Shown: positions 39,633 through 55,434 of the stretch, piece after piece
How positions within the stretch are numbered: the stretch's first letter is position 1
Layout: the number at the start of each line of letters is the position of its first letter
Source of the DNA: Bacteroidota bacterium
GTDB taxonomy: Bacteria; Bacteroidota; Bacteroidia; UKL13-3
Reading direction: 5' to 3'
Assembly (NCBI GenBank): GCA_027487835.1
Contig: JAIYCU010000020.1
Coordinates: forward strand, 136,970 to 200,969
DNA length: 64,000 nt
Made by a program: the position numbers and the translations under genes
The notes under the pieces: model-generated
The model's input: only the letters and a program-made list of their open reading frames with translations
Database searches by the model: none
What the model was told of the DNA's origin: nothing

Positions 39633-41150
39633 TTATTTTATACCTTCTAGGTAGATCAATAATTTGTTTTCTCTAAAGCCTTTATCAGCATCGTACCAGT
39701 TTTCATATTCTTGACCTTCGCTCTTTGCCCAATCAGCCAACTTTGGATAACCAGTTAAGATATCTTGTTTTTCTACCATGTGAGGTATTAAACCTTCAAC
39801 TTTAATTGCAAAAGGTAAATTGTTTTTAGTTTTGTAATAAGTTCCTTTTTCAGGATTAGAGTAATCTACACCCGTTCCGAATAATTTTTTAGAAGCTAAA
39901 TTAGTTGGTGCATAGTCAGGTAAATGAACCTCTACCTCTCTTTGACCATTCACAATGATATAAGGATTTAATTTTAGATCTTTAACTTCAATCGCAAATT
40001 CTTTGTCAGTATTAAATTCAACTGTAACTTCTACGGTTTCTGGCTTTACAAATGGACCTTCTGGGTTTACATTGATTCCGCTTCCACCAGCTGATTTAAG
40101 TACAGAAGAAGTTTTATCAAAAATAATGATGTTGGCAAAATCTTGGTTTTGTTCTGAACCTACTTCATTGAGTTCAATCCACTTTGAAGTGCCAAGTACA
40201 CTGCCATTTACCATGTTAAGCCTAATTGGACTTAATCCATCAAATTGTACTGCAAATCCATTGTCAAAACTTGCTCCTACTGCGTTTAATTGGGTTGTGA
40301 TAATTACTTCTACCACATTATTATTTGCATTTGTAATTGCTTTTGCTTGATAAATGGCAACAAAGTCATTAAAATCATAGTCACCAGTTGCAGGCCAAAG
40401 ATCTTCAAACATCAAAGTAGAAGGAGTGGCATTTGGAATTTGAACGATATAGGCTTTTTCTTTATCTTCTGGAAAAGCATCATCTGCATCTGCCACACCA
40501 TCTCCATCTTTGTCTAAAATTTGAACTTGTGGTAAGCAACTGTTGAGAGGATCGGCAAAATAGGTACTTGGTATAGTCAAATCATCTAACATGATTCTAG
40601 AATTTCCTCCACTTCCCGCTAAGCTTATCATTATTTTATAGGGTACAGAAGAATTTGCAATTGCAGCAGGTATTGGGATACTTAAATTATTAACTGTTGT
40701 GTTAATAGTTGTAAAATCGTAAACATTAAATTCAACCCTTGTACCTTCCTTAGCAGAATTGCCAGTTACTGCATCATAAGGCAAATATGCAATATGGACT
40801 TTTCTAACAGTACCATTACTTGCAGTTAGTTTAGCTTTTAAGGTTATGTTTCCAGAACCAGGTTTTATCCAAGGCGACTTTATCCAAAAAGAGGTAACCA
40901 ATAAACTTGTTGCCTGACCACTTTGGGCAGAATAGAAATTAGAAATAGCGCCAATATCTGTATAAGATACACCTCCAAATGTCCAACAATTTGCAATGTC
41001 ATAGTTCCTTCTATCTGTAGCTCCTCTGCTGCCTCCATTGTTGATAGGAGAGGAACTTGTTTCGCAATTCAAAATTGGAAGTGCTGTTTGCGCATGTATG
41101 TTGGCTGTTATGAACAAACCAGCTACAATTGATAATAATAGTTTTTTCAT
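39633..41150 (-). CDS. secreted LruC-domain protein, copy 1
   Basis: 505 residues with a signal peptide 'KKLLLSIVAGLFITANIHAQ'. The N-terminal 200 residues form a beta-rich domain. It is followed by a calcium-type loop, 'DKDGDGVADADDAFPEDKEKA', like thrombospondin type-3 or EF-like repeats (first 19 residues carry the Asp pattern). The LruC/DUF4842 domain begins 'FEDLWPATGDYDFNDFV' and continues to about residue 410, with 'LNPYIIV..REVEVHLPDYAPT'. The C-terminus is conserved with copy 2. Probably a surface or secreted calcium-binding protein; no function is established. It lies 19 bases after its partner lipoprotein gene. Confidence 0.8.
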   Translation of the reverse strand: MKKLLLSIVAGLFITANIHAQTALPILNCETSSSPINNGGSRGATDRRNYDIANCWTFGGVSYTDIGAISNFYSAQSGQATSLLVTSFWIKSPWIKPGSGNITLKAKLTASNGTVRKVHIAYLPYDAVTGNSAKEGTRVEFNVYDFTTINTTVNNLSIPIPAAIANSSVPYKIMISLAGSGGNSRIMLDDLTIPSTYFADPLNSCLPQVQILDKDGDGVADADDAFPEDKEKAYIVQIPNATPSTLMFEDLWPATGDYDFNDFVAIYQAKAITNANNNVVEVIITTQLNAVGASFDNGFAVQFDGLSPIRLNMVNGSVLGTSKWIELNEVGSEQNQDFANIIIFDKTSSVLKSAGGSGINVNPEGPFVKPETVEVTVEFNTDKEFAIEVKDLKLNPYIIVNGQREVEVHLPDYAPTNLASKKLFGTGVDYSNPEKGTYYKTKNNLPFAIKVEGLIPHMVEKQDILTGYPKLADWAKSEGQEYENWYDADKGFRENKLLIYLEGIK

Positions 41151-41169
41151 TTTATAAGCTATGTGTTTT

Positions 41170-41577
41170 TTAGTCAGCTAAAGTTGGAAGAATGTCAAAT
41201 GAAATAGCAGAAACATTTGTGCTATAGATTTTACTAACTGCTCCGTATTTAACAACTATGTTACTCATGTTTGTTGGAACCGCTAATTTTGTTTGAAAGT
41301 TTGATGACATGTCTTGCGTTCCAGCATAAAATACAATCTTACCATCTTCGCTGCTAATGGTCAAAGTTGTTTTCACAGGCTGAATTGTAGGAATTCCTAC
41401 ATAATTAAATGTAAGCTCATTTGTGGTTTTCCAATCAAAATTTTCTGAGGTTTTGATTTCGTTAAATTTTTTGGCACTAGAACCAGTAATAGGTAGATCT
41501 TGGTTTTCGTTCATTTGTTTTTTGCAAGAGCTTAAGCTAACCAATGCAATGAAGGAAATGATGATGAAGTTTTTCAT
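41170..41577 (-). CDS. small lipoprotein of LruC cassette, copy 1
   Basis: 135 residues. The signal ends in the lipobox 'VSLSSC' followed by Lys-Lys. The mature chain has 'FDWKTTNELTFNYVG' and 'KIVFYAGTQ', a beta-sandwich that resembles the domain preceding the LruC domain in fused LruC lipoproteins I know from other Bacteroidota. Here it is a separate gene 19 bases upstream of LruC copy 1. It is almost identical to copy 2 (43334-43741) after the signal peptide, with roughly a dozen substitutions. Probably anchored in the outer membrane and may dock the secreted LruC partner (inference). Confidence 0.7.
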   Translation of the reverse strand: MKNFIIISFIALVSLSSCKKQMNENQDLPITGSSAKKFNEIKTSENFDWKTTNELTFNYVGIPTIQPVKTTLTISSEDGKIVFYAGTQDMSSNFQTKLAVPTNMSNIVVKYGAVSKIYSTNVSAISFDILPTLAD

Positions 41578-41762
41578 TTTTGAAATTGTTTCTTGTTTTG
41601 TTTTATAAGTTACAAATCAAATGCCGTTTATAAATTTCATATTTTTATTTTGTAAGTACTTGATATGCAATGTATAATGATTCTATTTTTTTATTCTTAG
41701 TTTTTAGTTTTGTTTCGTTTTGAACCAAAAATGGAAATAAAGGAATGATTTTTTATTTCAAT

Positions 41763-41798
41763 AAAAAAGGCGAAAGTAGCTAAACTTTCGCCTTTTTT
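41763..41798 (-). terminator. Intrinsic terminator of LruC cassette 2
   Basis: AAAAAAGGCGAAAGT pairs with ACTTTCGCCTTTTTT over 15 bases around a six-base loop. It follows the stop of the second LruC gene, so each cassette ends in its own terminator and is a separate transcription unit. Confidence 0.88.
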
Positions 41799-41820
41799 AA
41801 TGTTTAAATGATAGAGTTTA

Positions 41821-43314
41821 TTATTTAACTCCTTCTAAATAGATAAGCAATTTATTTTGTCTAAAACCTTCACTTGCATTATACCAGTTTGCATATTCTT
41901 TTCCTTCGCTTGCAGCCCAATCAGCCAATTTAGGGTAACCAGATAAAATATCTTGTTTCTCTATCATGTGAGGAACTAAACCTTCCACTTTAATGGCAAA
42001 AGGAAGGTTGTTTTTAGTTTTATAATAAACGCCTTTTTCGAAGTTTGAATTGTCTTTTTCAGTACCAAAAAACTTCTTGTTAGCTAAACCAGTTGGTGCA
42101 TAATCAGGTAAATGAACTTCAATTTCTCTGTTTTGATTTACAATGATATAAGGATTTAATTTAAGATCTTTTATTTCAATAGCAGATTCTTTTGCGGTAT
42201 TAAAAGCAATGGTAACAGTTACTTTTTCTGAGTTAACAAAAGGACCTTCTGGATTCACATTAATACCACTTCCGCCAACGCCTGGGAACAATGCTCTTGC
42301 TTGATCAAATACCAAGATGTTTAGAAAGTCTTGTCCAGCTTCAGTTCCGTTATCATTAAAAGTGCTGTACTTAGAATTGTTGGTAATATTGCCTTTTACG
42401 CTTTGAACTAAATCTGGTTTAAGTCCATCAAATTGAACTGCAAAACCGTTGTTATAACTTGCACCAATTGCCATTACATTAGAAGTTATTTTAACTTCAA
42501 CCACTTTATTATCTGCATTTGTAATTGCAACTGCATCATAGGCAGCAACAAAGTCATTAAAATCATAATCACCAGTTGCAGGCCAAAGGTCTTCAAACAT
42601 TAAAGTTGAAGCAGAGGCATTAGGTACTTGAACATTATAAGCTCTATCTTTATCTTCAGGATATTCATCTAAATTATCTGCTACACCATCGCCATCTTTG
42701 TCTAAAATTTGAACTTGTGGTAAGCAATTGTTTGCAGGGTCTGCAAAATAGGTTCCAGGTACTGATATATCATCTACAATTAATCTAGAGCCTGAATTTC
42801 CGCCCACTCCTACCAAACTAATCATAACCTTATAAGGTACAGTTGAATTAGCAATTGCTGCTGGAATAGCAAACGATAGGTTTTGTGAAGTTGTAGGAAA
42901 GGGGCTTGAATAACTGATTGAATCGAATCGTACCAATGTTCCTTCCTTTATATTGCCTGGGTCTGCTGCATTGTGAGGAATATAGGATAAAATAATACGT
43001 CTGATTGATCCGGCAGTAGAAGATTGATTTTTATATTTTAGAGTAATATTTCCAGATCCTGGTTTGATCCAAGGTGTTTTGATCCAACAAGCTCCAATAG
43101 ATGGGTTTGAAGGTGAATTACTAAGAATTGACCAGCTACCAGTGATTGGTAGTCCAGTTGCATTTGTGTATGAGGCTGATCCAAAAGACCAGCAATTGGC
43201 TTGCTCTAAACTTCTGTTGCCAGATTCTGCATTCAAAATTGGAAGTGCAGTTTGTGCATGTGTATTGGCTGTTATCAACAAACCAGTTACAATTGATAAT
43301 AATAGTTTTTTCAT
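41821..43314 (-). CDS. secreted LruC-domain protein, copy 2
   Basis: 497 residues with nearly the same signal peptide as copy 1 ('KKLLLSIVTGLLITANTHAQ'). The order of parts is the same: a beta-rich N-terminal domain, a calcium-type loop 'DKDGDGVADNLDEYPEDKDR', the LruC domain from 'FEDLWPATGDYDFNDFV', and a conserved C-terminus ending 'NKLLIYLEGVK'. The N-terminal 200 residues differ much more from copy 1 than the rest does. The gene follows its lipoprotein partner by 19 bases. The role is unknown; secretion and calcium binding are inferred from the sequence. Confidence 0.8.
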   Translation of the reverse strand: MKKLLLSIVTGLLITANTHAQTALPILNAESGNRSLEQANCWSFGSASYTNATGLPITGSWSILSNSPSNPSIGACWIKTPWIKPGSGNITLKYKNQSSTAGSIRRIILSYIPHNAADPGNIKEGTLVRFDSISYSSPFPTTSQNLSFAIPAAIANSTVPYKVMISLVGVGGNSGSRLIVDDISVPGTYFADPANNCLPQVQILDKDGDGVADNLDEYPEDKDRAYNVQVPNASASTLMFEDLWPATGDYDFNDFVAAYDAVAITNADNKVVEVKITSNVMAIGASYNNGFAVQFDGLKPDLVQSVKGNITNNSKYSTFNDNGTEAGQDFLNILVFDQARALFPGVGGSGINVNPEGPFVNSEKVTVTIAFNTAKESAIEIKDLKLNPYIIVNQNREIEVHLPDYAPTGLANKKFFGTEKDNSNFEKGVYYKTKNNLPFAIKVEGLVPHMIEKQDILSGYPKLADWAASEGKEYANWYNASEGFRQNKLLIYLEGVK

Positions 43315-43333
43315 TTTATGGATAGTTTGTTTT

Positions 43334-43741
43334 TTAGTCTACTAAAGTTGGAAGGATGTCAAATGAAATAATAGAAACATTTGTGTTGTAGGTTTTGCTA
43401 ACTGCGCCGTATTTAACAACTAGGTTACTCATGTTTGTTGGAACCACCAATTTTGTTTGAAAGTTTGATGACATGTCTTGTGTTCCAGCATAAAATACAA
43501 TCTTACCGTCTTCGCTGCTAATGGTCAAAGTTGTTTTCACAGGCTGAATTGTAGGAATTCCTACATAATTAAAGGTAAGCTCATTAGTGGTTTTCCAATC
43601 AAATTTTTCTGAAGTTTTGATTTCGTTAAATTTTTTGGCACTAGATCCATTATTAGGTAGATCTTGGTTTTCGTTCATTTGTTTTTTGCAAGAGGTTAAA
43701 CCTATCAATGCAAATACGGATAAAATAATTAAGTTTTTCAT
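43334..43741 (-). CDS. small lipoprotein of LruC cassette, copy 2
   Basis: 135 residues from ATG 43741, which gives the lipoprotein signal 'KNLIILSVFALIGLTSCKKQ'; upstream in-frame ATGs would bury it. The lipobox is LTSC. The mature part closely matches copy 1, including 'GTQDMSSNFQTKL' and a terminal 'SFDILPTLVD'. It forms a 408-base direct repeat with 41170-41577, 2164 bases away. It heads the second cassette, upstream of which lies the AT-rich divergent intergenic region. Confidence 0.7.
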   Translation of the reverse strand: MKNLIILSVFALIGLTSCKKQMNENQDLPNNGSSAKKFNEIKTSEKFDWKTTNELTFNYVGIPTIQPVKTTLTISSEDGKIVFYAGTQDMSSNFQTKLVVPTNMSNLVVKYGAVSKTYNTNVSIISFDILPTLVD

Positions 43742-44074
43742 AAATGTTGTTTTTAGTTTCATGCTGTATTCCAATTAATATACCAGTTTTATGTTTTTAT
43801 AAATTCATATATAATTCCCAGTTAATCAGAATTTTGAAATATTAGACTTAAATATTAAAAGATTTTTTTTGTTTCATTTTGGGTCTGAATATTCAGAATG
43901 GGTTTATTGAAACTGCTTTTATTTGCCTTTTTTTTTTTTTTTTCTTAAGTAATTTCAAATATATAATTAATGATAGTGATAATTCTATACATCCTTAAAA
44001 TTGTTTGAACTAATATGAATTGAAAAGCCAATATATTGAACAGGTTTAATTAAAATTATTGGAATAAAAATCTG
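43742..44074. other. AT-rich divergent intergenic region
   Basis: Together with the promoter at 44075-44106 this is a 384-base gap between the LruC cassette and kdnA, read outward on both sides. No open frame with coding character was seen. It holds a 16-T run (43928-43943) and otherwise AT-rich sequence. No convincing promoter was found for the minus-strand cassette. Confidence 0.6.
43928..43943. repeat. Homopolymer of 16 T
   Basis: An uninterrupted T16 tract lies almost midway between the divergent starts at 43741 and 44126. Such tracts slip during replication and could vary promoter spacing, or may simply be intrinsic curvature. Its length may also be miscalled in sequencing. Confidence 0.8.
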
Positions 44075-44125: not shown

Positions 44126-45331
44126 ATGGCAGGAACAGAATTTTATGGCGCCGAAGAGCGCAAAGAAATTAATGATGTATTAGAAACAGGCATCTTTTTT
44201 AGATATAACCACGATCATCTTCGTAATAATATTTGGAAAGCCAAAGAGTTTGAGGCCGAGGTGGCTAAATTGGTAGGTGCAAAATATGCACATGCGGTTT
44301 CAAGTGGTTCTACTGCGGTTTCTTGTGCCCTTGCGGCGGCAGGAATTGGTGCTGGTGATGAAGTAATCGTTCCTCCCTTTACTTATATTGCTTCTGTAGA
44401 AGCCGTTATTTTTGCAGGCGCTTTACCTGTTTTTGCAGAAGTTGATGAAACTTTATGCCTTAGTGCAGCGGGAATTAAAAAGGCCATTACGCCAAAAACC
44501 AAAGCAATACTCCTAGTACATATGTGCGGCCAAATGGCACAAATGGACGAAATCATGCAAGTGGTAAAGGACCATAACCTTGTTTTAGTTGAAGATGCTG
44601 GTCAGGCAATGGCTGCAAGCTATAAAGGCATTAGCACTGGGCTTTTTGGGAAAACTGGTTGCTATAGTTTCGACTTTTTTAAAATTGCTACCGCAGGCGA
44701 AGGTGGCGTGATGGTAACTAACGATGAAGTTGCCTATAAATTAGCAGATAATTTTGCAGACCACGGACATGATCATATTGGTTCAAACCGAGGCATGGAA
44801 AACCATCCTGTGGTAGGCTTTAACTATAGAATTTCAGAATTACACGCAGCCATTGGCTTGGTTCAAACCCGCCGTGTGCCTATGATTAGAGAGAAAAATA
44901 ACTTGCATAAAAAATACATGATGCAAGAACTTGGTAAAGTTCCTGGAGTTTCATTTGCTAGCATTCCAGATGAAAATGGGGATTCTGCTACCTTCCTTAA
45001 TATGTTTTTGCCAAATACCCAGGCCGCACAAAAAGTAGTGGATGCCTTTAATGCCAATGGGGTAGGTGGTTTTAATTATTGGTTCACCAATATGTACCAT
45101 TTTATAAACCAATGGAATCATATTAAAGAAGGTCACGTTGCTGCTAAAACAAATGTTCAATTGCTAGGTGCTCCGCAAGACTATAAAAATTTAGATTTGC
45201 CAAAGACCCAAGAAACAATTGGACGATTAATTTCTTTTGGTATTCGTGCTAGCTGGACTGAAGATGAACTTAAAGAACTTGTTTCCAAAATGACTGCAAG
45301 CATAAACCAAGCTATGTCATTAACAGCCTAA
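44126..45331 (+). CDS. kdnA: Kdo8N aminotransferase KdnA (DegT/DnrJ/EryC1 family)
   Basis: 401 residues. A PLP-dependent sugar aminotransferase: 'SSGSTAVSCALAAAGIGAGDEV', 'VPPFTYIASVEAVI', 'LVEDAGQAMAASYKG', and 'SFDFFKIATAGEGG' with the Schiff-base Lys (first motif quoted in part is 'SSGSTAVSCALAA'). KdnA of Shewanella converts 8-oxo-Kdo to 8-amino-3,8-dideoxy-octulosonate using glutamate. The assignment rests on the neighbouring KdnB-type dehydrogenase and kdsA as well as on sequence. Two GGTTCAAACC copies lie in it (44780, 44860), in different codon phases. It is first in a tight operon. Confidence 0.85.
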   Translation: MAGTEFYGAEERKEINDVLETGIFFRYNHDHLRNNIWKAKEFEAEVAKLVGAKYAHAVSSGSTAVSCALAAAGIGAGDEVIVPPFTYIASVEAVIFAGALPVFAEVDETLCLSAAGIKKAITPKTKAILLVHMCGQMAQMDEIMQVVKDHNLVLVEDAGQAMAASYKGISTGLFGKTGCYSFDFFKIATAGEGGVMVTNDEVAYKLADNFADHGHDHIGSNRGMENHPVVGFNYRISELHAAIGLVQTRRVPMIREKNNLHKKYMMQELGKVPGVSFASIPDENGDSATFLNMFLPNTQAAQKVVDAFNANGVGGFNYWFTNMYHFINQWNHIKEGHVAAKTNVQLLGAPQDYKNLDLPKTQETIGRLISFGIRASWTEDELKELVSKMTASINQAMSLTA

Positions 45332-45340
45332 AATTTAACT

Positions 45341-46423
45341 ATGGCACATAAGAATTTTAAATCGATAGAAAAAACAGTATTTGGTAGAGGGAGTTTTGCC
45401 CAATTGGCTGAAATTGTAGCACCCATTAGAGAAAGAAATCAACAGTATTTTGTATATGTTGTAGACCAATATTTTAAAGGGAAGACACTTGAAAGCCAAT
45501 TACAGGCGCAGCCAGAGGATTTGATTTATTTTATTGATGTTGACCCGAATGAGCCAACAACAGAGCAAATTGACCAATTACGTGATGAGATTTTAGCCAA
45601 TAAGGGACTTCCTAGCGGACTCATTGGTATTGGTGGAGGTAGCATAATGGATATTGCTAAGGCCTTGGCTTTGATGTTAACCAATGAAGGGTCATCTGTT
45701 CAGTATCAAGGTTTGAACCTAATAAAAAAGCCTGGTATTTATCACCTAGGAGTGCCTACTATTTCTGGAACTGGTGCAGAATGCAGTATGACCGCGGTAT
45801 TAACAGGCCCTGAGAAAAAGTTGGGATTAAAGTGCGATTGGACCATTTTTGATCAAGTTATTTTAGACTCTGAATTAACAGCTTCTGTGCCTACCGACAA
45901 ATGGTTTTATACTGGAATGGATACTTTTATTCATTGCATTGAAAGTAGAGATGGCATGCTAAATAATGCCTACAGCTTTGCTTATGGAGAGCAATCCTTG
46001 AAATTGTGTAGAGAGGTTTACCTAGGCGAAAATGCTGGAAGAAGCGCAGAGAATGATGATAAACTTATGGTGGCTTCTTTGATGGGTGGATTAAGTTTAA
46101 CCTATTCTGAAGTAGGTGTTTGCCACGCACTTAGCTATGGTTTAAGCAAAATTTTTGGCGAGAAACATTGTTATGCCAATTGCCTTGCATTTCAGCATTT
46201 AGGCGATTATTACCCAGAAGGAGTTGATGAATTTAAAACTATGTTGAAACAGCATGGCGTAAGCTTACCACAAGGTTTAAGTAAGGCATGGACAGAAGTT
46301 GAAATAACCGCCATGGCTCAGGTTGCTTATAATTTGCCGCATATGTGGAACCATGCCATTGGCACAGATTGGAAAGAAAAGATTACTTTAGACACGATTA
46401 AAGATTTATTTAGAAGATTGTAA
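45341..46423 (+). CDS. kdnB: Kdo 8-oxidase KdnB (iron-type alcohol dehydrogenase)
   Basis: 360 residues. It belongs to the group III metal-dependent alcohol dehydrogenase fold: 'IGIGGGSIMDIAKALALM' binds the dinucleotide, 'PTISGTGAECSMTAVL' follows, and metal ligands are expected in 'MDTFIHCIES', 'GVCHALSYGL' and 'GEKHCYANCL'. KdnB of Shewanella oxidises Kdo at C8. The close pairing with kdnA (nine bases) and kdsA (one base downstream) makes this much likelier than a glycerol or butanol dehydrogenase. It carries one dispersed motif at 45710. Confidence 0.86.
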   Translation: MAHKNFKSIEKTVFGRGSFAQLAEIVAPIRERNQQYFVYVVDQYFKGKTLESQLQAQPEDLIYFIDVDPNEPTTEQIDQLRDEILANKGLPSGLIGIGGGSIMDIAKALALMLTNEGSSVQYQGLNLIKKPGIYHLGVPTISGTGAECSMTAVLTGPEKKLGLKCDWTIFDQVILDSELTASVPTDKWFYTGMDTFIHCIESRDGMLNNAYSFAYGEQSLKLCREVYLGENAGRSAENDDKLMVASLMGGLSLTYSEVGVCHALSYGLSKIFGEKHCYANCLAFQHLGDYYPEGVDEFKTMLKQHGVSLPQGLSKAWTEVEITAMAQVAYNLPHMWNHAIGTDWKEKITLDTIKDLFRRL

Positions 46424-46424
46424 C

Positions 46425-47255
46425 ATGACAAAAATTGTAAAAGTTGGTGATATCGACTGTGGTTCGGATGAATTATTTTTAATTTCTGGACCTTGTGTAA
46501 TTGAAGATGAAATGATTATGATGAAAACCGCAGAAAAGCTTAAAGAAGTTTCTGAGCGTTTAAACATCAAGTTGATTTATAAATCATCGTTTCAAAAGGA
46601 TAACCGTAGTAGTTTAAAATACTATGATGGTCCTGGTTTAGCAGCAGGTGTTAAGTTGTTGGCAAAAATTCGTGAGCAATTTGGATTCCCTATCCTTACA
46701 GATGTTCATTACCCAGACCAAGCTACTGCGGCAGGTGAGGTGGTAGATGTACTCCAAATACCCGCTTATTTATGTATGCAAAGTACCTTACTGGTTGCAG
46801 CTGCAAAAACCAATAAAGTGGTGAATATTAAACATGGTCAATTTTTGGCGCCAGACAACATGAAGCACCCTGTTGCCAAATGCGTTGAAAGTGGAAACGA
46901 CCAAGTGATTTTAACAGAACGTGGTTATACTTTTGGGTACAATGATTTAATTGTTGACCCTAGAAGTTTCTATCATTTAAGAAATATTGGATATCCAGTT
47001 GTGTTCGACGTTACCCATTGCGTTCGTAAATATGGCACTCCAAGCGCTGACCCAAATGGCGGCGCACGTGAATTTTTACCTGTTTTAAGCAGAGCAGGTG
47101 TTGCTTCCGGAATTGATGGAATTTTTATTGAAACCCACCCAGAGCCTTCAAAAGCTTTGTGTGATGCCGCCTCTCAATTGTGTGTATATGATTTAGAAGA
47201 ATTTTTAAAACCTTTGATTGAATTGCATCAAGTAGAATTAAAATATCGCAAATAA
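46425..47255 (+). CDS. kdsA: 3-deoxy-8-phosphooctulonate (Kdo-8-P) synthase
   Basis: 276 residues. It condenses phosphoenolpyruvate with arabinose 5-phosphate. 'ISGPCVIED' has the Cys that marks the metal-dependent class (Asn in the E. coli class). The other metal ligands are seen as His in 'FDVTHCVRK', Glu in 'FIETHPEP' and Asp in 'KALCDAA'. 'YKSSFQKDNRSS', 'KHGQFLAPDNM' and 'LTERGYTFGYNDLIVD' are further family blocks. It starts one base after kdnB and ends one base before the next gene, so all are probably one transcript. Product feeds Kdo and then Kdo8N synthesis. Confidence 0.95.
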   Translation: MTKIVKVGDIDCGSDELFLISGPCVIEDEMIMMKTAEKLKEVSERLNIKLIYKSSFQKDNRSSLKYYDGPGLAAGVKLLAKIREQFGFPILTDVHYPDQATAAGEVVDVLQIPAYLCMQSTLLVAAAKTNKVVNIKHGQFLAPDNMKHPVAKCVESGNDQVILTERGYTFGYNDLIVDPRSFYHLRNIGYPVVFDVTHCVRKYGTPSADPNGGAREFLPVLSRAGVASGIDGIFIETHPEPSKALCDAASQLCVYDLEEFLKPLIELHQVELKYRK

Positions 47256-47991: not shown

Positions 47992-49002
47992 ATGGAATTA
48001 TACTTAGATTCAGCAAACCTAAAAGAAATTGAAGAAGCCTTTAAATTGGGTATTTTAAATGGCTTAACCACTACTCCTACCTTTATGCAACGTGAAGGCA
48101 TTACCGATGTAGATGGAATGATTATAAAGCTTTCTAAAATTGTACCTGTACTTCAGATTGAAGCTTTGGGAGATACTGCCGAGGATGTATTAGCGGAAGC
48201 TAAAAGACAATTGGCTTTGGGTTTAGACCCTACCAAAACAGTGTTTAAAATTCCTGTTTCATTAGAAGGCGTTAGGGCTTGTCGTTTGCTAAGAAACGAA
48301 GGCTTACTTGTAAACGTTCATTTGGTTTACACTTTACAACAAGCTTATATGGCCATGCACGCAGGAGCCACTTATGTTTGTCCTTTGGTTGGTCGTTTGC
48401 AAGATCAAGGTCATGATGCCTTGGATTTAGTGGCTCAAATTGTAGATGCAGTAAACGATTATGGGTATGATACAAAGGTGATGTTCTCTTCGGTTAGAAA
48501 TGTGGAGCACGTTAGAAATGCCTTAAACTTGGGAGTGCATACCATTACTGTTCCTTTGAAAATATTAAAGCAGTTAACCGAAAATCATTTTACTACGGTA
48601 GGAACTGAGCAATTTATTCATGATACCCGTTTAATGACGGTTAAAGTGCGTGAAGCCATTAATGGCATCAATCCTTTAGTGAGTGCAGATACAACTTTAG
48701 TAGATGCCATTATAAAAATGACTGAGTATGGATTTGGCGCCATTACTATTGTTAATGCAGATGGAAGTTTAAAAGGGGTATTTACCGACGGTGATTTACG
48801 TCGCAAAATTCAAACAGATGGAAGAGATGTTTTGAGTAAGAAGATGTCTGATTTTACCTTTGCCGATGCCAAATCTGTGGAAGCAGGCGCATTGTTAAAT
48901 GATGCTGCACAAATTTTAAAAGCTACTAAAGTTGATACCTTATTGGTAACAGAAAACGGCAAGCCAATAGGCATGTTAGATATTCAAGATTTAGAAGCTT
49001 AA
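47992..49002 (+). CDS. transaldolase-family protein fused to a KdsD-type CBS pair
   Basis: 336 residues. Residues 1-215 or so are a TalC/FSA-like (beta-alpha)8 barrel: start 'MELYLDSANLKEIEEA', Schiff-base Lys in 'VFKIPVSLEG', 'ATYVCPLVGRLQDQGHDA', 'FSSVRNVEHVRNA'. Active-site neighbours differ from usual members: TTNP is 'TTTP', and the 'NVTLVFS'-type block is 'NVHLVYT'. Residues about 220-336 are two CBS motifs with 'GVFTDGDLRRKI' and 'LLVTENGKPIGMLDIQDL', closely like the CBS pair of KdsD. KdsD is SIS plus CBS; here the SIS part is replaced by an aldolase. Supply of arabinose 5-phosphate to KdsA is a fair inference, unproven. Possible own promoter; followed by a terminator. Confidence 0.8.
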   Translation: MELYLDSANLKEIEEAFKLGILNGLTTTPTFMQREGITDVDGMIIKLSKIVPVLQIEALGDTAEDVLAEAKRQLALGLDPTKTVFKIPVSLEGVRACRLLRNEGLLVNVHLVYTLQQAYMAMHAGATYVCPLVGRLQDQGHDALDLVAQIVDAVNDYGYDTKVMFSSVRNVEHVRNALNLGVHTITVPLKILKQLTENHFTTVGTEQFIHDTRLMTVKVREAINGINPLVSADTTLVDAIIKMTEYGFGAITIVNADGSLKGVFTDGDLRRKIQTDGRDVLSKKMSDFTFADAKSVEAGALLNDAAQILKATKVDTLLVTENGKPIGMLDIQDLEA

Positions 49003-49018
49003 TTAGATTTTTAAATAG

Positions 49019-49046
49019 AAAAAAGCCGCTTCGAGCGGCTTTTTTT
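49019..49046 (+). terminator. Intrinsic terminator after the transaldolase/CBS gene
   Basis: AAAAAAGCCGCT and AGCGGCTTTTTT pair around a TCG loop, followed by T. It is only 12 bases before the next gene, so the HAD gene downstream needs read-through or its own promoter. Confidence 0.88.
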
Positions 49047-49057
49047 ATAAAATAACC

Positions 49058-49771
49058 ATGAGTAATAATATTCAAACTATTTTCGAAAATTTAGGTGGCC
49101 AATTTTGTACGCCTGTCTCTCAATTGACTGAGCGTTTGGCTACCATCAAAGCTTTTGTGTATGATTGGGACGGCGTGTTTAACAATGCTGTAAAAAACGA
49201 AAATAAAAGCAGTAATTTTAATGAAGCAGACAGCATGGGAACCAATATGCTTCGGTTCAGCCATTACCTTAAAACCCAACAATTACCCAAAACAGCCATT
49301 ATTTCTGGAGAGAAAAATGAGTTTGCCTTTTACTTTTCTGAAAGAGAACATTTTGATGCTTGTTATTATAAGGTTCCTAATAAGATTATTGCCCTAGACC
49401 ATTTTTGTGAGCAGCATAATTTAAAACGCGAAGAAGTTTGCTATACTTTTGATGATGTGCTGGATTTGAGCATTGCTGCCGTTTGTGGTCTAAGGATAAT
49501 GATTAACAGAAAAGCAAATCCGCTGTTTAAAAATTACTTAGTAAAAAACCAATTGGCTGATTACATCACGGCTGCTGAAAGTGGCAATTTCGCAGTAAGA
49601 GAAGCGTCTGAATTATTAATGGGTTTGAACCAAAATTATGATGACTGTATGGATGAACGTAAAGACTTTTCTGAGTTATATCGCAAGTATTTAGCCGAAA
49701 GACAAGCCCAAGAAACACACTTTTTTAACATCGAAAATGAAAGCGTCAAAGAAGTCGCTCGTCCTGCTTAG
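49058..49771 (+). CDS. HAD-superfamily phosphatase, KdsC-like
   Basis: 237 residues, longer than typical KdsC (about 180). HAD motif I is 'VYDWDGVFNNAV' with the nucleophile and acid Asp pair, motif II 'TAIISGEKN' with the Ser, a Lys in 'VPNKIIALDHF', and motif IV 'YTFDDVLDL'. After motif I, 'NFNEADSMGTNML' aligns with the KdsC segment FNVRDGxGIxxL. KdsC removes the 8-phosphate of Kdo-8-P, the step after KdsA. The C-terminal 50 residues are extra and charged. Another sugar-phosphate substrate is possible. It is four bases into a convergent overlap with ppk1. Confidence 0.72.
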   Translation: MSNNIQTIFENLGGQFCTPVSQLTERLATIKAFVYDWDGVFNNAVKNENKSSNFNEADSMGTNMLRFSHYLKTQQLPKTAIISGEKNEFAFYFSEREHFDACYYKVPNKIIALDHFCEQHNLKREEVCYTFDDVLDLSIAAVCGLRIMINRKANPLFKNYLVKNQLADYITAAESGNFAVREASELLMGLNQNYDDCMDERKDFSELYRKYLAERQAQETHFFNIENESVKEVARPA

Positions 49772-53499: not shown

Positions 53500-55434
53500 A
53501 TGAAAACAAGGATAACTTATGCTCTATTTGTTATTTTGGTTTTAGCTAATAACATATTAAATGGCAATCCCATTATTCAAAATGGGGAAGCCAATTTTAC
53601 GGATATCAACTTTTCTAATAGAGGACTTTACCCACTTAATGGAGAATGGCTTTTTTATGAAGGCGTTTTTTTAGGCACCCAAAGAAACACTAATCTTGAT
53701 ATAAATATAATGCCTATTGAGGTGCCTAATGAATGGAGCAGATTTGAAATGCAAAAAATTAAAAAGGGCATTGGTTTTGGAACTTATGCTTTGTTGATCA
53801 AAAAAAAACCTCAAGAAGAACTTGTTTTATTGCTTAAAGATATTGGAAGTGCTTATAAAGTTTGGATCAACAAAATACCTATATTTTCTTGTGGTGAAAT
53901 AGGAACAGATGCAGCTCAAAGTCGCCCTCAATTTTGCCAACAAAATATTAATTTACCTAAAGATACAAATCAAGTCCTTTTATGGATTGAAGTGAGTAAT
54001 TTTCATCAGGTACGTGGTGGGATTTTGCAAAGTCCAGAATTACTAATATCCCGCCAAATTGGCTTAAAGCAAGAACGAGATGCCCTCTACCGTTATTTTT
54101 GTTTTGGAATTCTTTTTGTAATTGGCCTTTATCATATTGGGCTTTGGGGTTTAAACAGAAATGATATCTCCTCCTTATTGTTTGGCTTATTCTGCTTAAT
54201 ACTACTCAATTTTTTTACTTTTAGAAGTAGATTAGTTTATAGATTTTATCCTGATTTTTCTTGGGAATTAGGCAACCAAATAGAATACATATCACAAATT
54301 ATATCAATTCCTTTGTTTTATGTTTTCTTTTATCATTCATTTAAAAGATATTTCTGGAGATTTTTTAAAGTGTTTGCCATTGCATTTAGTTTACTCGCTT
54401 CCATATTTGTACTATTAACCCCACCATTATATTTCACTCATATCTTAACCTTTATTCACGTAATTTTACTAATTTATATTCCAGCAGTTCTTATAGGTTT
54501 AATCAATTCTTTAAAAAACAAAGAGCCTGGTGCACGTATACTTTTAGTTGGTTTTAGTATATTTATGGTAGCATTAATAAATGATATCTTGCATGTTCAA
54601 AACATCATTCATACCAACAACGTAATCATTTTTGGGGTAATAGGATTTATTTTATGCCAAGCTTATTTTCTTGCTTATAACAGTAATCAATCTAGACTTA
54701 AGAATATTGATTTATCAAATAGTTTATTAGAATTAAACAATAGCCTAAGCAGATTTATACCTCAGAATTTTATTGATTTAATGGGTAAAAGTAATATCAC
54801 TGAAATTTCATTGGGCAATTGCACAGAGCAAGAAATGACCATTATGTTTAGTGATATCCGCTCTTTTACTACCATTTCTGAACAACTTTCCTCCGGAGAA
54901 TCATTTCGGTTTATAAATGATTATTTGCAAGTAATGGGGCCTATTATTAAATCTAATAATGGCTTTATAGACAAATACATTGGCGATGGTATTATGGCTT
55001 TGTTTCCAAATCACCCAAATGATGCCGTTAATGCTTCTTTAGAAATGATGGCTGCTCTTCAAAAGTTTAATTTATTAAATATTGCTTTGAATAAACCGCA
55101 GATTGCTATTGGAATAGGTTTACATTATGGAACAGTTGTTTTAGGCACTGTAGGCGAACCTGATAGAATGGATACAACAGTAATTTCCGATGCAGTTAAT
55201 CTAGCAGCGCGAATAGAATCACTTACAAAGCAATACCTAGTCTCTGTAATCATTAGTGGAGAAGCCTTTGATAAACTAAGCAATTCATTGGCTGGTTTAT
55301 GCAATTTTATTGGGAAGGCTACTGTAAAAGGCAAAACAATAGAAACAAAATTGTACCAGGTTAATTATAACGAGAAAGCACAAAATACTGAGCCTTCTTT
55401 TTCAAAATTAATTAACGAAGAGGTGGCTTACTAA
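53500..55434 (+). CDS. membrane class III adenylate/guanylate cyclase with 7TMR-DISM sensor
   Basis: 644 residues. Signal peptide (about 1-23), then an extracytoplasmic jelly-roll (7TMR-DISMED2-like; 'NGEWLFYEGVFLG', 'LLLKDIGSAYKVWINK'). Seven membrane helices lie at about 195-395. The catalytic CHD domain (about 440-620) has 'IMFSDIRSFTTISEQL' with metal Asp, 'YIGDGIMALFP' with the second Asp, and 'VISDAVNLAARIE'. 'IDKYIGDG' keeps the Lys of the substrate-selecting pair, favouring ATP over GTP (inference). It senses an outside ligand, perhaps a carbohydrate, to make a cyclic nucleotide. No effector gene is visible in the window. Confidence 0.88.
   Translation: MKTRITYALFVILVLANNILNGNPIIQNGEANFTDINFSNRGLYPLNGEWLFYEGVFLGTQRNTNLDINIMPIEVPNEWSRFEMQKIKKGIGFGTYALLIKKKPQEELVLLLKDIGSAYKVWINKIPIFSCGEIGTDAAQSRPQFCQQNINLPKDTNQVLLWIEVSNFHQVRGGILQSPELLISRQIGLKQERDALYRYFCFGILFVIGLYHIGLWGLNRNDISSLLFGLFCLILLNFFTFRSRLVYRFYPDFSWELGNQIEYISQIISIPLFYVFFYHSFKRYFWRFFKVFAIAFSLLASIFVLLTPPLYFTHILTFIHVILLIYIPAVLIGLINSLKNKEPGARILLVGFSIFMVALINDILHVQNIIHTNNVIIFGVIGFILCQAYFLAYNSNQSRLKNIDLSNSLLELNNSLSRFIPQNFIDLMGKSNITEISLGNCTEQEMTIMFSDIRSFTTISEQLSSGESFRFINDYLQVMGPIIKSNNGFIDKYIGDGIMALFPNHPNDAVNASLEMMAALQKFNLLNIALNKPQIAIGIGLHYGTVVLGTVGEPDRMDTTVISDAVNLAARIESLTKQYLVSVIISGEAFDKLSNSLAGLCNFIGKATVKGKTIETKLYQVNYNEKAQNTEPSFSKLINEEVAY

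Follow-up and report, generated by a model that had tools for sequence, protein, structure and literature searches.

A transaldolase-CBS fusion as a probable source of arabinose 5-phosphate for Kdo synthesis in KdsD-less Bacteroidota

The formation of D-arabinose 5-phosphate (A5P) is the entry step to 3-deoxy-D-manno-oct-2-ulosonic acid (Kdo), the sugar linking lipid A to the core of lipopolysaccharide (LPS). The window analyzed here is a 64,000-nucleotide stretch of a Bacteroidota bacterium (GenBank assembly GCA_027487835.1, contig JAIYCU010000020.1, forward-strand positions 136,970 to 200,969) that encodes, at 47992..49002 on the plus strand, a 336-residue protein joining a transaldolase (TAL)-type barrel to a CBS pair of the kind found in the A5P isomerase KdsD. 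Judged from sequence and genome content, this TAL-CBS fusion quite probably makes A5P in place of KdsD. Such a non-orthologous replacement, put forward in the original prediction, is supported by the absence of KdsD from the host genome, the mutual exclusion of the two enzymes, the linkage of the fusion to kdsA, and a natural swap in a related genome. The reaction favored for the fusion, a guess held at somewhat less than even confidence, is the condensation of glycolaldehyde and glyceraldehyde 3-phosphate to A5P.

Domain architecture of the fusion

The open reading frame (ORF) at 47992..49002 contains no internal stops. Its transaldolase/fructose-6-phosphate aldolase (FSA) barrel spans residues 1-215 (47992..48636), as assigned by Pfam TAL_FSA (4.4e-36, residues 3-201) and by superposition of the structural model, and is followed by a KdsD/KpsF-type CBS pair at residues 216-336 (48637..48999), a proposed feedback sensor. 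Pfam detects CBS in two stretches (6.2e-15), of which residues 229-273 are the strongest. The best NCBIfam match of the CBS pair is the KpsF/GutQ model TIGR00393 with 64 bits over residues 215-329, compared with 32 bits for the runner-up CBS model outside the KdsD/GutQ group. TIGR00393 aligns through its CBS part alone (model positions 153-267), and Pfam and NCBIfam profile searches of the 336-residue protein give no match to a SIS catalytic domain. The union of a TAL-type barrel with a KdsD-like CBS pair was therefore read correctly in the original prediction, and each of the motifs it quoted, VFTDGDLRRK, GKPIGMLDIQDL, FKIPV and TTTP, is found in the protein. Many Bacteroidota genomes encode full-length homologues with 60-99% identity, and a sequencing error as the source of the domain fusion is ruled out by 86 intact homologues. 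Under sequence-family rules the protein qualifies neither as an FSA equivalog nor as a KdsD, with a score of 165.9 bits against the FSA/TalC equivalog TIGR00875 that falls below the curated cut-off of 245.95.

The predicted structure of the fusion has a mean pLDDT of 92.7 and a pTM of 0.73, and its barrel superposes on the Bacillus subtilis and Thermoplasma acidophilum transaldolases (3r8r/3s0c) with Z ∼30 and a root-mean-square deviation (rmsd) of 1.4-1.5 over 211-215 residues. Modeled alone (pLDDT 88.8), the CBS pair is closest to 4o9k, the A5P isomerase of M. capsulatus (Z 17.8, rmsd 1.5, 120 residues); two more A5P isomerases occupy ranks 2 and 4, with gaps in Z below 1 counting as ties. 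By sequence, the top three solved CBS structures are all A5P isomerases (4o9k, 3k2v, and 3fna). The ligand of 4o9k is presumably CMP-Kdo. In a tree with a short alignment, rough support and few non-KdsD CBS pairs, the CBS pairs of the fusions adjoin those of KdsD, apart from the few others included, such as IMP dehydrogenase. The fusion shares with KdsD/KpsF/GutQ (SIS plus CBS pair) the type of CBS pair, including the VFTDGDLRR motif, as well as kdsA as genomic partner. In contrast, the catalytic domain is SIS in those enzymes and a transaldolase barrel in the fusion, and Schiff-base chemistry is proposed here instead of enediol isomerization.

Exchange of the fusion and KdsD across genomes

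In the genome of the host, which is 99.92% complete, no protein scores above the KpsF/GutQ cut-off, and this absence of a SIS-CBS KdsD favors replacement. A stand-alone SIS-only A5P isomerase, such as the one reportedly present in Bacteroides fragilis, was considered and rejected: the sole single-SIS protein of the host (G000:C21) is GmhA-like by motif, and its other SIS proteins are GlmS, MurQ, and PGI/PMI-like. Across a phylum sample of 395 genomes, kdsA is present in 288 and KdsD in 283. Full-length fusions occur in six of the 395; apart from the window's own, they have 60-78% identity to the window protein, and the next-best homologues are stand-alone barrels with ∼37% identity. All six fusion genomes contain kdsA and none contains KdsD, compared with KdsD in 277 of the 282 other kdsA-positive genomes (Fisher p = 6e-10, an indicative value since the genomes are related and relatedness is uncorrected). 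Within the host's class, the kdsA-positive genomes of this sample that lack KdsD are exactly the five fusion carriers (5/5).

The same pattern holds in a sample of the host's order, which consists of 64 genomes of one family: the fusion is present in 34, KdsD in 21, and both together in none. The five genomes of genus g172 in this family (G463-G467) lack the fusion, KdsD and kdsA alike, and the genus is apparently without Kdo. Among 50 further fusion genomes, 49 have kdsA and 48 are without KdsD. The co-occurrence of the fusion with kdsA in KdsD-less genomes is thus seen at the phylum level and within a single family, with kdsA adjacent in most loci. Mutual exclusion of the fusion and KdsD suggests that both make the same product. 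All six fusion genomes of the phylum sample keep a separate stand-alone homologue (2-3 matches per genome), so the housekeeping transaldolase must be a protein other than the fusion.

The KdsA that accompanies the fusion is remodeled and is referred to as KdsA'. In the window it is encoded at 46425..47255 (plus strand) and scores above the Kdo8P synthase cut-offs of both NF003543 (346 bits, cut-off 242) and TIGR01362 (330, cut-off 314). Its substrate motifs are changed from KANR[ST] to KDNRSS, from PAFLxRQ to PAYLxMQ (PAYLCMQ in the window), and from KKGQF to KHGQF (IKHGQF). The key residues, A61D, R120M, and K139H in Escherichia coli numbering, are invariant in 55 fusion-linked KdsA proteins and missing from 17 canonical KdsA proteins of the phylum, the F-to-Y change of PAYLxMQ is likewise invariant in the 55, and the stem of the fusion-linked clade is very long (1.22). 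The lost arginine, which corresponds to R120 in the E. coli and R106 in the Aquifex aeolicus KdsA, presumably reaches the phosphate of A5P from the neighboring subunit. A crystal structure of an A. aeolicus KdsA variant with glycine at R106 is present in the PDB. Remodeled KdsA' is seen at 46425-47255 of the window and at the loci L039, L040, L042, L043, L208, and L209.

The best evidence for a shared function of the fusion and KdsD, and for A5P as the product, comes from the gene content of one genome only, G249 (a single 7.0-Mb contig, 99% complete). This genome has the cluster KdnA-KdnB-KdsA'-KdsC'-KdsB in the usual order with the fusion missing between KdsA and KdsC, and a canonical KdsD is located elsewhere, adjoining a recQ-like gene. 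The KdsA' of G249 groups, at 99/79 support, with the KdsA of G190, which belongs to the same family and carries the fusion, and the pair is nested within the fusion-linked KdsA clade (support 100/100). The pairing of KdsA' with an ordinary KdsD in G249 is most simply explained if KdsA' still takes A5P.

Active site, proposed chemistry and competing explanations

The active site was compared between the 86 fusions and 24 stand-alone homologues, all of the latter from the phylum. Both sets have D6, E57, K86, N108, R135, S167, and R169 in common. Lys86 (codon 48247..48249, plus strand, as for all codons given here) aligns with the Schiff-base lysine of solved transaldolases and is invariant in 86/86 fusions, in agreement with its predicted retention. 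The donor site is changed without exception: Thr28 (48073..48075) stands for the Asn of transaldolases and FSA, His110 (48319..48321) for Thr, and Cys130-Pro-Leu132 (48379..48387) for Ser-Pro-Phe, each in 86/86 fusions with the usual residue of other family members in 24/24 stand-alones. Two further exceptionless swaps are Q for D at position 137 and S for A at position 166. The altered specificity that had been read from TTTP in place of TTNP gains support, as this change is present in 86/86 fusions and is joined by three further donor-site changes. Compared with FSA/TalC (TIGR00875; E. coli FsaA, T. acidophilum and B. subtilis TAL), the fusion has the same fold and the same Asp6, Glu57, Lys86, Asn108, Arg135, and Arg169. 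It is unlike them in having Thr28, His110, Cys130, and Leu132 instead of Asn, Thr, Ser, and Phe, in its CBS pair, in its location in a Kdo locus, and in scoring far below the equivalog cut-off.

By their motifs, positions 28, 110, 130, and 132 are taken to be N35, T156, S176, and F178 of TalB, and the PDB holds TalB mutants at all four. N35 and S176 of TalB bind dihydroxyacetone at its C1 hydroxyl; the joint loss of their equivalents fits a donor without a C1 hydroxymethyl, such as glycolaldehyde. R135 and R169 are presumably the phosphate-binding arginines (R181 and R228 in TalB), and the retention of both fits a phosphorylated substrate.

In the proposed mechanism, the fusion would supply D-arabinose 5-phosphate to the nearby KdsA. 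Lys86 of the barrel would form a Schiff base with the substrate aldehyde, and N28T, S130C, T110H, and F132L would reshape the pocket that accommodates the C1 hydroxymethyl of the donor, so that the rebuilt pocket with the kept R135/R169 would lead to an aldose phosphate and not a ketose phosphate. Glycolaldehyde would then add by an aldol reaction to D-glyceraldehyde 3-phosphate, and the product expected from the D-threo stereochemistry of the family is precisely D-arabinose 5-phosphate. The CBS pair, being of KdsD type, probably senses CMP-Kdo or CMP-Kdo8N, by our guess, and would throttle the first committed step. Taken as a whole, this picture of a dedicated, feedback-regulated A5P aldolase, which would build Kdo from a C2 unit and a triose phosphate with no isomerization of ribulose 5-phosphate and with a co-evolved KdsA'-KdsC' module, is tentative and falls a little short of an even chance.

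The proposed reaction has precedent in the family. From glycolaldehyde and glyceraldehyde 3-phosphate, E. coli FsaA forms A5P only, and TalB F178Y forms ribose 5-phosphate as well as A5P (PMC9947464). PDB entry 3upb is a crystallized transaldolase with A5P covalently bound. The FsaA product and this complex indicate that the transaldolase scaffold can form and bind A5P. The synthetic 'Ara5P aldolase' step of a glycolaldehyde assimilation pathway (FsaA, TalB F178Y; PMC9947464) is the same as the reaction proposed here; in that pathway a promiscuous enzyme was put to use by engineering, whereas the fusion is proposed to be natural, dedicated, and regulated. A non-exhaustive search of the open literature found no report of an alternative A5P or Kdo route by a transaldolase or CBS fusion.

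Several observations weigh against an A5P-forming aldolase that replaces KdsD. Most cells contain little free glycolaldehyde, no source that would supply the required amount was identified, and folate synthesis releases some, probably too little. Among the recurrent neighbors in 85 fusion loci there is no obvious glycolaldehyde-producing gene. T110, a classical catalytic position, is now His, which could mean chemistry other than aldol addition, and KdsA' is altered at its A5P-site motifs. The fusion and KdsD are found together in two metagenome-assembled genomes, G433 and G434, the second of which also has a second, canonical kdsA; genome mixing is possible in both. Five kdsA-positive genomes of the phylum sample (G023, G200, G272, G303, and G358) and one of the order sample (G477) have neither enzyme, and some of these genomes are incomplete or fragmented. 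A second kdsA of canonical type also accompanies the fusion, with no KdsD, in G412, G431, and G441, which may be mixed bins or contain two Kdo systems.

The scarcity of glycolaldehyde makes C2-epimerization of ribose 5-phosphate via the same Schiff base a serious rival, although on balance an unlikely one. KdsD would again be replaced, and the fusion would convert ribose 5-phosphate (or ribulose 5-phosphate) into A5P, with Lys86 forming a Schiff base at the aldose C1 and His110 acting as base; inversion at C2 would proceed by deprotonation and reprotonation, or by retro-aldol and aldol steps that keep the glycolaldehyde unit bound. The products of TalB F178Y indicate that the scaffold tolerates both C2 epimers (PMC9947464). 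Such a route avoids the problem of glycolaldehyde supply, gives a role to the Thr110 to His change of 86/86 fusions, and fits the genomic evidence for KdsD replacement equally well. Against it, the kept E57/K86/N108 set looks like aldol chemistry, and we know of no epimerase in the transaldolase/FSA family.

The invariant changes in the substrate motifs of KdsA' (A61D, R120M, and K139H), its long clade stem (1.22) and its presence with the fusion in 33/34 carriers of the host family would also suit a fusion that makes a different aldose phosphate, turned by KdsA' into an analogue of Kdo. This is improbable, as G249 pairs KdsA'-KdsC'-KdsB-KdnAB with an ordinary KdsD and no fusion, implying use of A5P; KdnA and KdnB are clearly related to Kdo-acting enzymes, and KdsA' is still above the Kdo8P synthase cut-off. 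Least credible, at a very low probability, is an ordinary transaldolase or FSA with a CBS regulator, whose place in the Kdo cluster would reflect chance or a loose link to the pathway, with A5P coming from another isomerase. The transaldolase fold and the Schiff-base lysine agree with such an enzyme, but the donor-site residues are replaced in every fusion, a separate stand-alone homologue is kept in fusion genomes, and both the mutual exclusion with KdsD and the linkage to kdsA would be left unexplained.

The Kdo8N locus and the meaning of a second A5P enzyme

Upstream of KdsA', the plus strand of the window encodes KdnA, the Kdo8N aminotransferase (44126..45331; best PDB match 5k8b, 4e-130, residues 1-390), and KdnB, the Kdo 8-oxidase (45341..46423; 5k8c, 8e-121, full length), two Kdo genes that the original prediction had left unnamed. 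Downstream of the fusion lies KdsC' (49058..49771, plus strand), a divergent KdsC-like HAD phosphatase with 53 bits against NF007019, under the cut-off of 208, and KdsC 7t35 as its best PDB match (2e-7). KdsC' is strongly diverged (FVYDWDGVFN) and travels with the fusion, and its substrate may differ. The relatives of KdnA and KdnB indicate that the locus makes the Kdo derivative Kdo8N. The placement of the fusion beside kdsA in a Kdo locus stands as to the nearby KdsA, but the two do not directly adjoin: one small ORF (222 aa, signal-peptide-like start) separates them. In the 85 fusion loci, this ORF is lineage-specific and seen in close relatives only. A terminator-like hairpin at 49018-49047 (AAAAAAGCCGCTTCGAGCGGCTTTTTTT) lies between the fusion and the KdsC-like gene, which suggests that they belong to separate transcription units.

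The recurrent neighbors across the 85 loci are KdsA, KdsC-like, KdnA, KdnB, KdsB, a waaA-like gene, and lineage-specific genes. In 62 well-bounded loci, where the sequence extends 4 kb or more to both sides of the fusion, a Kdo gene lies on the same strand within 5 kb in 51, KdsA in 39, and a KdsC-like gene in 46. The Shewanella Kdo8N genes kdnA/kdnB (5k8b, 5k8c) have clear relatives in the window cluster and in many fusion loci; unlike them, the fusion also occurs beside kdsA without adjacent same-strand kdnAB (L040, L042, L121, L125, and L146). A role in Kdo8N synthesis only is rejected on this adjacency, and the five loci suggest that the fusion goes with Kdo synthesis itself.

Two fusion loci, L131 and L109, come from assemblies labeled Azovibrio restrictus and Candidatus Saccharibacteria. 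The KdsA of L131 falls among Bacteroidota in the tree and the fusion of L109 is of the same type; these assemblies are probably mislabeled or contaminated bins. Elsewhere in the window, the minus strand at 39633-43774 has a tandem duplicate of a two-gene module, a ∼500-aa DUF4842 protein and a small lipoprotein-like protein, and comparable gene pairs are found close to the fusion in several relatives. An adenylate/guanylate cyclase domain fused to a 7TMR-DISM sensor is encoded at 53500-55434.

If the fusion does make A5P, a second, unrelated A5P enzyme would close a gap in LPS synthesis in many uncultured Bacteroidota and would explain kdsA genomes without KdsD. It would also mean that a KdsD-type CBS regulator can join a different catalytic fold for the same pathway step. 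If the glycolaldehyde aldol reaction is also true, the fusion would be a natural, dedicated 'Ara5P aldolase', the kind of enzyme sought by synthetic glycolaldehyde assimilation (PMC9947464).
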